From Acidobacteriota bacterium (GTDB lineage: Bacteria > Acidobacteriota > Vicinamibacteria > Vicinamibacterales > UBA8438): DNA of 40,918 nt. The stretch is from contig JAGWAI010000020.1 in the NCBI GenBank assembly GCA_021296485.1, forward strand, positions 5,617-46,534. The letters are read 5' to 3'. A program made the position numbers and the translations under genes. This document shows positions 8,350 through 15,765 of this stretch, piece after piece. Within the stretch, counting starts at the first letter, position 1. Each line of letters begins with the position of its first letter. Under the pieces are notes generated by a model. It searched no databases and was not told the DNA's origin. It saw nothing but the letters and a program-made list of their open reading frames with translations.

Positions 8350-10155
8350 ATGGGCCGTTTTCCGCCGCACTTCATCGACGATCTCAAGACGCACGCCGAC
8401 ATAGTCCAGGTCGTGCAGGACGTCGTCCCGCTGAAGAAGGCCGGCAGCACCTACAAGGGGTTGTGCCCGTTCCACAACGAGAAAACCCCCTCGTTCCATG
8501 TGAACCAGGAGAAGGGGTTCTTTCACTGCTTCGGCTGCGGCACCGGCGGCGACGTCGTGAAGTTCGTCGAGTTGCAGGAGAAGCTGGCGTTTCCCGAGGC
8601 CGTCAGACTCCTCGCACAGCGATTCGGCCTGCAGGTGCCCGACTCGGGCGATCCCGAGCGCGACGCGGCCGCCGACGCCAGGCGCGAGGCGCTGCTCAAG
8701 GTCCACAGTCTGGCCGCCGCGTTCTTCCAGCAGCAACTGGGAGAGCCGCCCGGCCGCGGCGCCCGCGCAAACCTAGACGCTCGCGGCATTCGTCCCGAGA
8801 CGATCGAACGACTTGGTCTCGGCTATGCTCCCTCACAGCGCGACAGTCTGCGACGGCACTTGGGCGACGCCGGCCAGCCGCTCGACGTGCTGCTCGATAG
8901 CGGCCTGGTCGTGGAGCGGGACGGTGGCCGCGTGGTGGACCGTTTCCGGAACCGCCTGATGATTCCGATCTGCCGCGACAGCGGGTCCATCGTGGCGTTC
9001 GGCGGCCGGGCGCTTGAGAGCGGCCAGCAGCCGAAGTACATGAACTCGCCGGAGTCGCCGCTGTATACGAAGAGCCGGACATTGTATGGTTTACATCTCA
9101 CCAAGGCCGCGATCCGGCGATTGGGCTACGCCGTGATGGTTGAGGGGTACTTCGACTTCGCACAGATCGTGCAGGCTGGAATTCAGCCGGCGGTGGCTTC
9201 GTGCGGAACCGCGGTGACCGCGCAGCAGGGGCGACTGCTGCGCCGGTTCGCGTCGAAGGTCATCGTCAGCTTCGATCCCGACACCGCGGGTCGCACCGCG
9301 GCCGCGCGCACGGGCGAACTGCTGATCGGCGAAGATCTGCAGGTGAACATCGCTACTCTGCCGGAGGGCGAGGATCCGGACACCTGCGTGCGTCGGCACG
9401 GCGGCGCACACTATGCCGAGGCCCTCCGATCGTCACGGCCGTACCTGGAATACGTGCTCGACGACGCGGCGGCCGGACGCGACCTCTCGCGCAATGCGCA
9501 CCGCAGGGCGTTCCTGTCAGATATGCTGGCAGTGGCCCGCAGCATACCGAACAGCGCGGAGCGGGAAGAATTCGCCGACAGGATCATGCACAAGGCCGAG
9601 ATTAAATCGGAAACCGTTCGATCCGATTTCGTGCGCGCCGCTGTTGCGCGGCAGACCTCGCTCGGCGCCGCCACCACGGTATCGGTCGGGCAGGCGGTCA
9701 CAACCGTCGAGAAGGACCTGCTCTGGGCCATGATGAACGACACGCGTGCGGCGCTGGACGCGCTGACGGACGCGGAACCGGCGGATTTCGAAGGCCTTGC
9801 GACGGAGTCGATCCTGCGGGTCGCCCGGACGCTCGTCGAGTGGCCCGCCGAGACGGTGCGGCAGGCGCTGCTGGATCGCGTGAGCGGCGAAGACGCCGCA
9901 CTGGCGGAGGGTATAGCAAGTGAATCGCGGAAGCCGGCGGCCGCCGGCGACTGCGTGCTGGAGATGCAGCGGTGGCGGCTCGAGCGGCAACGCGTCACGC
10001 TGCAAGACGAGATAGCGCGCCGGCAGCAGATCGACTCCGACGATGCGGCCGCGGAGATCGATTCGCTTCTGCGGCGCAAGATGGAATTGGTACAACGCAT
10101 AGAGCAACTGGGAGGAAATGATTCGCGACACGTGCCGCGCGCACCGGGCGTCTGA
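8350..10155 (+). CDS. dnaG: DNA primase
   Basis: Synthesises RNA primers for replication and works with the DnaB helicase. The 601-residue protein has normal length and order: the CHC2 zinc finger with Cys39, His42, Cys60 and Cys63; the core ending in FRNRLMIPI; the TOPRIM fold with VEGYFDF and FDPDTAGR; then a C-terminal helicase-binding region of lower conservation. The start is an ATG 6 bases after mutS2. It precedes rpoD with an 89-base gap holding a GC-rich hairpin, echoing the dnaG-rpoD macromolecular-synthesis operon of other bacteria. Confidence 0.97.
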
Positions 10156-10244: not shown

Positions 10245-11942
<1,698 letters not shown>

Positions 11943-11949
11943 CGTGACG

Positions 11950-12025
11950 GGGCCCATAGCTCAGCGGTCAGAGCCGCCGGCTCATAACCGGCTTGTCCCA
12001 GGTTCGAATCCTGGTGGGCCCACCA
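11950..12025 (+). tRNA. tRNA with CAU anticodon (probably Ile2, possibly elongator Met)
   Basis: A 76-nt cloverleaf with encoded CCA. The acceptor stem gggccca/tgggccc is perfect, the D stem is gctc/gagc, the anticodon stem gccgg/ccggc carries loop ctcataa (anticodon CAT), and the T arm is ccagg-ttcgaat-cctgg. The G1-C72 pair and lack of a three-G anticodon stem exclude initiator tRNA. The acceptor and anticodon arm resemble tRNA-Ile2, whose C34 becomes lysidine, more than elongator tRNA-Met, but sequence inspection alone cannot settle it. Confidence 0.93.
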
Positions 12026-12232: not shown

Positions 12233-12970
12233 ATGCTGGCCGACCTTGAACAACTGATCAAGCTGCAGCAAATTGAAGACGAAGCGGCGGTAGCCCGCGC
12301 GCGGATCGAAGAACTCCCGGCCATGGTCGAAACGCTCGGCGCGCGGCTCGAGGCGAGCGAGGGCGAGCTGGCGCTCACGCAGCAGAAGCTCGACGATTCG
12401 CGGAGCGCCCGGCGGGAGCTGGAGAAAAACCTCGCGGCGGTGCAGACCCGGCTCGATCGTTTCCGCGAGCAGTTGATGCTGGTCAAGACCAACAAGGAAT
12501 ACCAGGCGATGCAGGGCGAAATGTCCGCGGCAGAGGGCGAGATCCGCCGCCTGGAGGACGAGATCCTCGAACGGATGATCGAAGGGGACGACCTTACGGC
12601 GGAGGTAGCGACCGCCAGCGCCGCCCTGGCCGCGGAAAAGAAGGCGGTCGCCGAGGAGCGCGCGGCCCTGGAACGCGAGCAGGATACGTTGGAGCGCCGG
12701 CTCGGCCAGATCGTGGACGAGCGCGCGCGCCACGTCGGAACGCTGGCGCAGGAAATGTTGTCGCTTTTCGAGACGGTCGCGGAACGCCGCAACGGCAGCG
12801 TGGCCGTACGGGCCCGCGACGGGCGCTGCTCGGGCTGCCAGGTCCGCCTGCGGCCCCAGCTGTTCAACGACGTGCGGACAAACAGCCACCTGATCCAGTG
12901 CGAGAGCTGCCAGCGCGTCCTGTACTTCGAGCCGGAGGCGGCCGCCCCGGAGGGCGGCACGGCGGCGTGA
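12233..12970 (+). CDS. Coiled-coil C4 zinc-ribbon protein (COG1579 / DUF164 type)
   Basis: A 245-residue protein made of a long antiparallel coiled coil (about residues 1-180, rich in Glu, Ala, Arg and Leu) and a C-terminal zinc ribbon with Cys199, Cys202, Cys223 and Cys226. This is the COG1579 family, thought to bind nucleic acid, with no settled function. It includes the family segment MLVKTNKEYQAM at about 82-93. In many genomes this family sits beside an RNase H-like gene, and here the next gene is an RNase HI fusion whose GTG start overlaps its stop (GTGA). The ATG at 12233 starts 19 bases after a strong terminator, and no good Shine-Dalgarno is visible, which is unusual. Confidence 0.88.
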   Translation: MLADLEQLIKLQQIEDEAAVARARIEELPAMVETLGARLEASEGELALTQQKLDDSRSARRELEKNLAAVQTRLDRFREQLMLVKTNKEYQAMQGEMSAAEGEIRRLEDEILERMIEGDDLTAEVATASAALAAEKKAVAEERAALEREQDTLERRLGQIVDERARHVGTLAQEMLSLFETVAERRNGSVAVRARDGRCSGCQVRLRPQLFNDVRTNSHLIQCESCQRVLYFEPEAAAPEGGTAA

Positions 12971-13821
12971 GCGCCGGATCGATCGTCGCGTATATCGACG
13001 GCGGCTCGCGCGGCAATCCGGGCGTGGCCGGCTACGGCGTACGCATCGAGGCGGACGACGGCTCGCTCATCGACGAGCTGAAGGGCGCGATCGGCATCGC
13101 CACCAATAACGTCGCCGAGTACCGCGGCCTACTCGCCGCGCTTGCCTGGATGGACCGCAACGGCTTCCGCGACGCGATTGTCCGGTCCGATTCCGAGCTG
13201 CTCACCCGGCAGATGACCGGTCGGTTCAAGGTCAGGCATCCGGGACTCAAGCCGTTGCATGCCGAGGCCATGACGATCGTCCGGCGGCTCGGTCGCGTGC
13301 GGTTCGAGCACGTGCGGCGATCGGCCAACGTCGAGGCCGATCGGCTGGCGAACGAGGCCATGGACCGCGCCGGCGCGGGCGGCAGCGCGGAAACGCCGAT
13401 TCCGGCGGCACCGCCCACCGCGGCATCCGCCGGACACGGCGGCGACGTTGTCGGGATCGGCATCGACATCGAATCCATCGCACGTGTAGGCGGTTTGCTC
13501 GAACGCTACGGCCCACGATTCGTCGAGCGGGTCTTCACGGCGCATGAAGCCGCGTACTGCCTGCGCCGCGCACGCCCCGCGCAACATCTCGCCGCCCGTT
13601 TCGCCGCCAAGGAGGCAGCGATGAAGGCGCTGGGTACAGGTCATGCGCGAGGCGTCATCTGGCGCAGCGTCGAGGTGGTACGCGAGGCAGGTCCGCCCCG
13701 GTTGCGGTTCCACGGGACGGCCGCCCGCCATTTCGACGCGATCGGCGCAACGCGTGCGCTGGTGACCATCAGCCATTCGGGCGACTTCGCGCTCGCCCAG
13801 GTCATGCTGTTCAGCCGCTGA
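12967..13821 (+). CDS. Fusion protein: RNase HI domain plus holo-ACP synthase (AcpS) domain
   Basis: One unbroken 284-residue frame holds two enzymes. Residues 5-130 are a type I RNase H with the metal-binding set Asp11 (YIDGGSRGNPG), Glu51 (NNVAEYRG), Asp75 (RSDSELL) and Asp125 (VEADRLAN); it would cut RNA in RNA-DNA hybrids. After a Gly/Ala/Pro-rich linker (about 135-160), residues 161-284 are a 4'-phosphopantetheinyl transferase of AcpS type, with Asp167 in GIGIDIESI and Glu216 in RFAAKEAAMKALGTG; it would convert apo-ACP to holo-ACP. There is no ATG or GTG near the AcpS boundary; the nearest in-frame ATG is at 13360, inside RNase H. Either a true fusion or internal initiation is possible. 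The start overlaps the upstream stop (GTGA). Confidence 0.85.
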   Translation: MSAGSIVAYIDGGSRGNPGVAGYGVRIEADDGSLIDELKGAIGIATNNVAEYRGLLAALAWMDRNGFRDAIVRSDSELLTRQMTGRFKVRHPGLKPLHAEAMTIVRRLGRVRFEHVRRSANVEADRLANEAMDRAGAGGSAETPIPAAPPTAASAGHGGDVVGIGIDIESIARVGGLLERYGPRFVERVFTAHEAAYCLRRARPAQHLAARFAAKEAAMKALGTGHARGVIWRSVEVVREAGPPRLRFHGTAARHFDAIGATRALVTISHSGDFALAQVMLFSR

Positions 13822-14151: not shown

Positions 14152-14469
14152 ATGACTGTGAAGATCGTGCAGAGCACCGCCGGGGCGCCGGCGGGCAAGC
14201 TGGCGGACGCGGAGTTGCACTTCTCGGAGGGCATTCTGGCGGGCCTGAAGCTCGTGGGCTTCACCGTGTGGGACGGGCGCGACGACCGGGGCCGCGGAGT
14301 GACCTTTCCCGCCCGGCAGTACCTCATCAACGGCGAGCGGCGCCACTACGTGCTGCTGCGCGCGGCCGGGGACACCGGCAACGCGGAGCCGCTGAGAGAG
14401 TTGATCCTCAGCGCGTACGCCGCCTGTGAGCAGGGCTCTTCCGCGGGTGATCCGGCGGGCGAGCGCTGA
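14152..14469 (+). CDS. Small conserved-looking protein, possibly SpoVG-like
   Basis: A 105-residue soluble protein with no signal peptide. The core (about residues 16-88) has alternating beta-type stretches, GLKLVGFTVWDG, VTFPARQY, NGERRHYVLLR, then a helix ending LRELILSAY. This layout recalls SpoVG, a small nucleic-acid-binding regulator with a basic FVAMPS-like box, and VTFPAR sits at the matching place. The resemblance is weak and was judged by eye. A GGAGGG ribosome-binding site lies 9 bases before the ATG. It stands alone: element copy B is upstream, and the convergent ftsZ stop is 21 bases downstream. Confidence 0.6.
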   Translation: MTVKIVQSTAGAPAGKLADAELHFSEGILAGLKLVGFTVWDGRDDRGRGVTFPARQYLINGERRHYVLLRAAGDTGNAEPLRELILSAYAACEQGSSAGDPAGER

Positions 14470-14490: not shown

Positions 14491-15765
14491 TCACCTGCGG
14501 GCCCGGATGAGCGGCGCATCCTCGTCGATCGCGATGTCGACGTCGAATTCCTGGTCGTCCGCGTCGTAGGCAGCCGAAGACTCTTCCGGCTGGGATTCCT
14601 CTACAACGTCGGCGACCGGCTCGGGGGCCGGTTCGGGGGCCGGTTCGGCCGCGGCCTCCTCCTCCCCGGGGTCCGGCCGCCGCCAGCCGGAGTACGCCTC
14701 CAGATCGACCGGTGTCTGGGCCGTTCCGGAAACCTTCACCGCCGCTTCGGCGGCATCATTGAAGCCGGTGGCGATCACCGTGATCTTGACCTCGCCTTCC
14801 ATGTGCGGGTCGACGACAGCCCCGAAGATGATGTTGGCGTCCTCGTAGGCCGCCTGCTGGATGACGGATGCCGCCTCACTCACCTCGATCATGGTGAGGT
14901 CGTCGCCGCCGGTAACGTTCACCAGCACCCCCTGCGCGCCGTCTACTGATACGTCTTCCAGCAACGGGCTGGAAATGGCGCTCTTGGCGGCGTCTATGGC
15001 GCGCGTGTCGCCGCGGCCCACGCCGGTGCCCATGATGGCCAGGCCCATGCGCGACATGATGGTGGTGACGTCCGCGAAATCGAGATTGATGAGTCCGGGC
15101 ACGAGAACGAGATCGGATATCCCGTGAATCGCCTGGAGGAGCACCTCATCCACCGTGGCGAATGCCTGCGTCAGGCTGGTTCGCCGATCGATCATCGACA
15201 ACACCCGCTCATTCGGAATCGTGATCACCGTATCCACGCACCTGCGAAGATCATCCAGTCCGCGTGCCGCCTGCGCGGCACGCTGCTTGCCTTCGAACGC
15301 GAACGGCTTGGTCACCACCGCCACCGTCAGCGCCCCCAGCTCGGTGGCGAGATTGGCGATGACCGGCGCCGCGCCGGTGCCGGTGCCGCCGCCGAGCCCG
15401 GCGGTGACGAACACCATGTCAGCCCCGTCGAGCGCGGTGATCAGCTCGCCGGTGTCCTCCAGCGCCGCCCTGCGTCCGACGTTCGGATCGGCCCCGGCGC
15501 CGAGACCCTTGGTCAGCTTCGCGCCGATCTGCAGCCGCAGCGGAGCGCTGCTGCGAGCTAGCGCCTGCGTATCCGTGTTGGCGACGATGAACTCGACGCC
15601 TTCGATGCCGGCGCCCACCATCTGCTCCACGGCGTTTCCGCCGCCGCCGCCGATCCCGATGACCTTGATGCGCGCGCGCGGGTCGGCAGAAGCATCCAGG
15701 GACAAACGCATGTCATCAGCAGCTGTCCCGTCGTCGTTGTGCTCCTCACTGTTGCGGTCCGTCAT
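14491..15765 (-). CDS. ftsZ: Cell division protein FtsZ
   Basis: Tubulin-like GTPase that forms the division ring at midcell. The 424-residue protein has an unusual acidic N-terminal extension of about 30 residues, then [22 protein letters not shown], the tubulin signature GGGTGTG at 125-131, and NFADV-type box NLDFADV. After about residue 350 comes a Pro/Glu/Ala-rich linker, and the end, [11 protein letters not shown], matches the basic C-terminal peptide that binds FtsA. The ATG is preceded by GGAGGA. It is the last gene of the dcw cluster, 33 bases after ftsA, and is convergent with the small gene at 14152. Confidence 0.98.

Follow-up and report, generated by a model that had tools for sequence, protein, structure and literature searches.

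Within the window, the stretch of 40,918 nucleotides of an Acidobacteriota genome that was analysed here, one reading frame appears to encode both an RNase HI and a holo-ACP synthase (AcpS). This raises the question of whether the two enzymes are genuinely fused and, if so, whether the fusion links their functions or merely their genes.

Gene and domain structure

The rnhA-acpS fusion gene at 12967-13821 (forward strand, as for all features unless stated otherwise) was found in the ORF analysis of the window to comprise 284 codons in one uninterrupted frame, with a GTG start and a TGA stop. The start overlaps the stop of the preceding gene in the sequence GTGA at 12967-12970, which would fit translational coupling. 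This preceding gene (12233-12970) encodes a CdsZ/COG1579-type coiled-coil zinc-ribbon protein, which matches PF02591 and PF24481 in Pfam, remains below the cut-off of NCBIfam NF047363 and occupies the same place in relatives. The locus has the conserved order dnaG (8350-10155), rpoD (10245-11942), CdsZ, rnhA, acpS and a 105-aa ORF (14152-14469), with ftsZ (14491-15765, reverse strand) and ftsA on the opposite strand, and dnaG, rpoD and ftsZ can be used as synteny markers on the two sides of the fusion. A tRNA-Met (CAT) is located at 11950-12025. The 105-aa ORF has no match in Pfam or NCBIfam, but several Vicinamibacterales families have a conserved copy of it between acpS/rnhA and ftsZ, with up to 89% identity in G001.

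The N-terminal part of the protein, residues 6-133 (12982-13365), is an RNase HI domain of the Rv2228c type. RVT_3 was detected at residues 11-131 (E 4e-19) and RNase_H at residues 6-131, with PF13456 reaching 69.2 bits against a cut-off of 21.6 and PF00075 28.3 against 25.8. Among solved proteins, the domain is closest to the RNase H half of Rv2228c (PDB 3HST, 6.6e-34). By E-value, the best RNase H model is PRK07238, which describes a bifunctional RNase H/acid phosphatase and matches only the RNase H part at residues 9-142; the score of 148.6 bits is far under the cut-off of 326, and the C-terminus is AcpS, without CobC. For this C-terminal part, residues 161-284 (13447-13818, with Asp167, Glu216 and His270), Pfam ACPS matches residues 163-255 (E 1e-18), and the NCBIfam acpS model TIGR00516 reaches 82.9 bits over residues 161-281, above its cut-off of 59.8 and in agreement with the approximately 120 residues expected. 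The closest solved relatives of this part are bacterial AcpS enzymes. A disordered linker of 27 residues rich in Gly, Ala and Pro (13366-13446) connects the two domains.

The catalytic residues named in the original prediction are kept, since the acidic RNase HI set of Asp11, Glu51, Asp75 and Asp125 and the Mg/CoA-binding Asp167 and Glu216 of AcpS are all invariant in the six fused homologues. Judged from these residues, the gene most likely encodes an RNase HI of the Rv2228c type and an AcpS, both with intact active sites and joined by a flexible linker. The RNase H domain is predicted to cleave the RNA strand of RNA/DNA hybrids, and a full-length protein with both enzyme activities would be expected to be synthesised. 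In the monomer model from AlphaFold, both domains have pLDDT values above 90, whereas the linker remains below 50 (residues 143-157). Together with a pTM of 0.53, this means that no fixed relative arrangement of the domains is predicted. Foldseek matched the two halves to 3HST and to AcpS of Vibrio and E. coli, respectively, and the best solved AcpS matches were those of Vibrio, E. coli and Streptomyces.

Distribution and conservation of the fusion

The uninterrupted fusion is present in 6 of 162 Vicinamibacterales genomes, all belonging to the same family (f1). These are the window's genome (G000), G001 and G002 from its genus, G012 and G018 from genus g2, and G005 from genus g4, so that the fusion is kept in three genera (g1, g4 and part of g2). 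The five other fusions are 58-78% identical to that of the window, full-length and without a stop. Their linkers comprise 15, 20, 21, 27 and 34 residues in the same frame throughout, and the length changes consist of whole codons only. In the window alone, the absence of a stop from the linker is weak evidence because the linker has a G+C content of 83% and 88% of shuffled linkers are also free of stops. The strong evidence that argues for a fusion is comparative, namely the five other species with the same frame. Both the claim of RNase HI and AcpS in one frame and that of an uninterrupted Gly/Ala/Pro linker are thus borne out by the domain matches in Pfam and NCBIfam and by the open frame kept across six species.

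Synonymous distances are near saturation except for the closest pairs, G000/G001 and G012/G018. In these pairs, both domains have values of about 0.1-0.25, with dN and dS of 0.094/0.844 and 0.080/0.458 for RNase H and of 0.102/1.159 and 0.107/0.427 for AcpS, respectively. The corresponding values for the linker are about 0.75-1.0. Purifying selection acts on both domains, while the linker drifts freely in length and sequence.

A search of a 396-genome sample of the phylum at E 1e-55, a threshold that would miss distant fusions, returned only G000 and G005. The wider species scan covered the best 80 loci only, and absence of the fusion outside Vicinamibacterales is not thereby proven. A viral origin was also considered and rejected, as a scan of viral contigs gave matches to RNase H alone and never to the fusion. 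RNase H-like proteins were among the best matches in a fold search of viral models.

Origin of the fusion

Most relatives carry a separate acpS downstream of the same rnhA, either directly adjacent or past a pgeF-type gene (PF02578), which in many Vicinamibacterales lies between the two on the opposite strand. In family f14, rnhA and acpS are adjacent or overlapping, and in G156, G157 and L064 they share a frame and are split by a single in-frame stop. The original prediction had suggested an RNase H that picked up its neighbour, and several observations agree with this: the fusion follows a CdsZ/COG1579-type gene, its RNase H part is closest to the Rv2228c half, and acpS is found downstream in most relatives. 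Rv2228c itself presumably adjoins a COG1579 gene as well. This RNase H is absent from G003, G023 and genus g9, whose acpS starts at a GTGA or ATGA overlap with CdsZ, the position expected for the start of the fusion; the arrangement resembles a fusion from which the RNase H part has been excised.

The trees of the single RNase H and AcpS domains are too short to resolve the history of the fusion by themselves. A tree was calculated from five flanking proteins (dnaG, rpoD, ftsZ, ftsA and murC), with RNase H and AcpS left out. Here, the genomes with the fusion and those with AcpS directly behind CdsZ form one clade of 12 with an SH-aLRT of 100. The rest of f1 falls outside this clade and has the RNase H without AcpS, or neither of them. 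The simplest history, and the one that this topology supports, is a single fusion after which the RNase H was removed on two occasions. Accordingly worded as a sequence of steps, rnhA and acpS, already close at a conserved locus, would have become adjacent. The stop codon of rnhA and the start codon of acpS would then have been lost, so that the frames were joined in a single event in the common ancestor of one clade of a single Vicinamibacterales family. Rather than a new mechanism, the fusion seems to be a chance product of gene order that has been tolerated.

Two further observations concern the loci collected for this comparison. L101 (VFYY01000017.1) is labelled as Acidimicrobiia (Actinomycetota), but has a CdsZ-rnhA-pgeF-acpS locus of the Vicinamibacterales type and groups with L097 from Acidobacteriota in both domain trees; it is probably a mis-binned contig. 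For L043/L049, the matches to dnaG of G017 and rpoD of G049 are each split in two, and frame errors or inserts may be the cause.

Function and alternative explanations

Two enzymes that work independently in one protein, joined through gene adjacency with a single origin in f1, are the likely explanation for this gene. The RNase H would cut the RNA of RNA/DNA hybrids independently of AcpS, and AcpS would transfer the phosphopantetheine group of CoA to apo-ACP, presumably once its domain has trimerised. Cross-talk between the domains is not expected. The fusion would be tolerated and not serve as a regulatory device, perhaps with equal synthesis of both enzymes coupled to the translation of CdsZ. 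However, its retention in three genera with both domains under constraint would also fit a mild benefit.

An actual functional device is an unlikely alternative. Tethering to a trimeric AcpS could create a multivalent RNase H or couple hybrid removal to the state of the carrier protein or of fatty acids. AcpS trimers are established in the family (PMC2148441), and by analogy with the solved members the AcpS half may trimerise and so bring three RNase H domains together in one particle. The joint constraint on both domains in three genera is consistent with such a role. However, neither the freely drifting linker nor the lack of a predicted fixed domain arrangement suggests a device, and the clade apparently lost the RNase H on two occasions but retained AcpS. 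Moreover, a second RNase HI is kept in 4 of the 6 fused genomes, and the parallel RNase H-CobC protein is functionally independent in its two parts (PMC7466739). Slightly less probable still is the more specific version in which an AcpS trimer presents three RNase H domains and the amount or location of this multivalent RNase H depends on carrier-protein activation; in this clade, neither a further RNase HI nor a further PPTase was seen in the window's own draft genome.

The original prediction had proposed to check for such further copies of acpS and rnhA, and the answer differs between the genomes. The window's genome has a single match each to PF01648 and PF00075, in addition to an RNase HII, although a second PPTase or RNase HI may be missing from this draft of 105 contigs with a completeness of 88%. 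In the relatives, the enzymes of the fusion are not the only ones: besides the second RNase HI copies mentioned above, G001 and G005 have an Sfp-type PPTase along with the fusion, with HetI as the best NCBIfam match of the G001 copy, below the cut-off. Where this RNase H is missing from a nearly complete genome (g5, g7, g8, g9 and G023), a separate canonical RNase HI is present, while no other RNase HI was seen in the nearly complete genomes of g6 and g10, which have this RNase H and no AcpS. An Sfp-type PPTase is present in the inspected genomes that lack AcpS. Across the family, the Rv2228c-like RNase HI at the CdsZ locus and an E. coli-like RNase HI elsewhere tend to replace each other, and the same tendency can be seen for AcpS and Sfp-type PPTases.

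It is similarly improbable that two proteins are made and the fused frame is nominal only, either by cleavage of the linker, whose disorder could permit this, or by initiation of AcpS at the internal ATG at 13360-13362. This codon is the sole ATG, GTG or TTG between the two domains in the window, and it lies near the domain boundary, so that initiation there would extend AcpS by about 29 residues. However, it encodes Met132, the ancestral C-terminal Met in the 'ANxAMD' motif of the RNase H, and it is also present in unfused RNase H genes with AcpS in another frame. In the fused gene of G005, the equivalent codon is CTG, and there is no ATG, GTG or TTG in the whole stretch. Internal initiation is therefore not a conserved mechanism, and re-initiation at 13360, which had been named as a finding that would refute the fusion, fails as a general explanation. 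Furthermore, the acpS start codons of the unfused relatives are lost at the old boundary in all six fused genes, and the in-frame length changes of the linker fit read-through translation. Internal initiation in the window's species alone is still conceivable. An assembly or sequencing error that eliminated a stop codon or caused a frameshift, the other refutation that had been considered, can be dismissed for practical purposes, since the same fusion occurs in the assemblies of five other species despite the draft state of the window's genome.

Comparison with known systems

A fusion of RNase H and AcpS was found neither in the published literature that was searched, with architecture databases partly covered, nor as a family model in the Pfam and NCBIfam libraries used. 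Therefore, this pairing of enzymes appears to be undescribed, while its components and the kind of event are already known. Two independently working enzymes remain the preferred reading, and the locus makes their history readable in one place, as the genes can be seen separate, adjacent, fused and with one fused domain removed again. It lends itself to the question of when a domain fusion is adaptive and when it results from drift, and it cautions against reading a 'Rosetta stone' fusion as evidence of a functional link.

The closest known system is the actinobacterial RNase H-CobC protein (PRK07238) represented by Rv2228c and MSMEG_4305. Both fusions have an N-terminal RNase H of the same subfamily, with 47% identity to 3HST over the domain, followed by a linker of variable length (24-162 residues in the known proteins) and an unrelated metabolic enzyme at the C-terminus. 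In contrast, the partner is CobC in the known proteins and AcpS here, the phylum is a different one, and the PRK07238 score is insufficient for membership. RNase H-AcpS is a fusion independent of RNase H-CobC, and the two together suggest that RNases H of this subfamily can become fused with whichever gene lies next downstream. For MSMEG_4305, removal of CobC in vivo hardly changed growth, fitness or the level of hybrids, its linker is highly variable, and its authors concluded that the fusion was fixed by drift (PMC7466739). RNase H-AcpS shows the same signs.

The AcpS part can be compared with two further systems. Like the group I PPTases of the AcpS type (TIGR00516), it is a full domain above the curated cut-off with its catalytic residues kept, whereas these enzymes are normally free proteins of about 120 residues, which form homotrimers with active sites between subunits, and the domain described here has no start of its own and is attached to an RNase H. 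The PPT domain of the fungal FAS alpha subunit (FAS2) is likewise an AcpS-type domain at the C-terminus of a larger protein. However, it is joined there to the synthase that it serves, and here to an unrelated nuclease.
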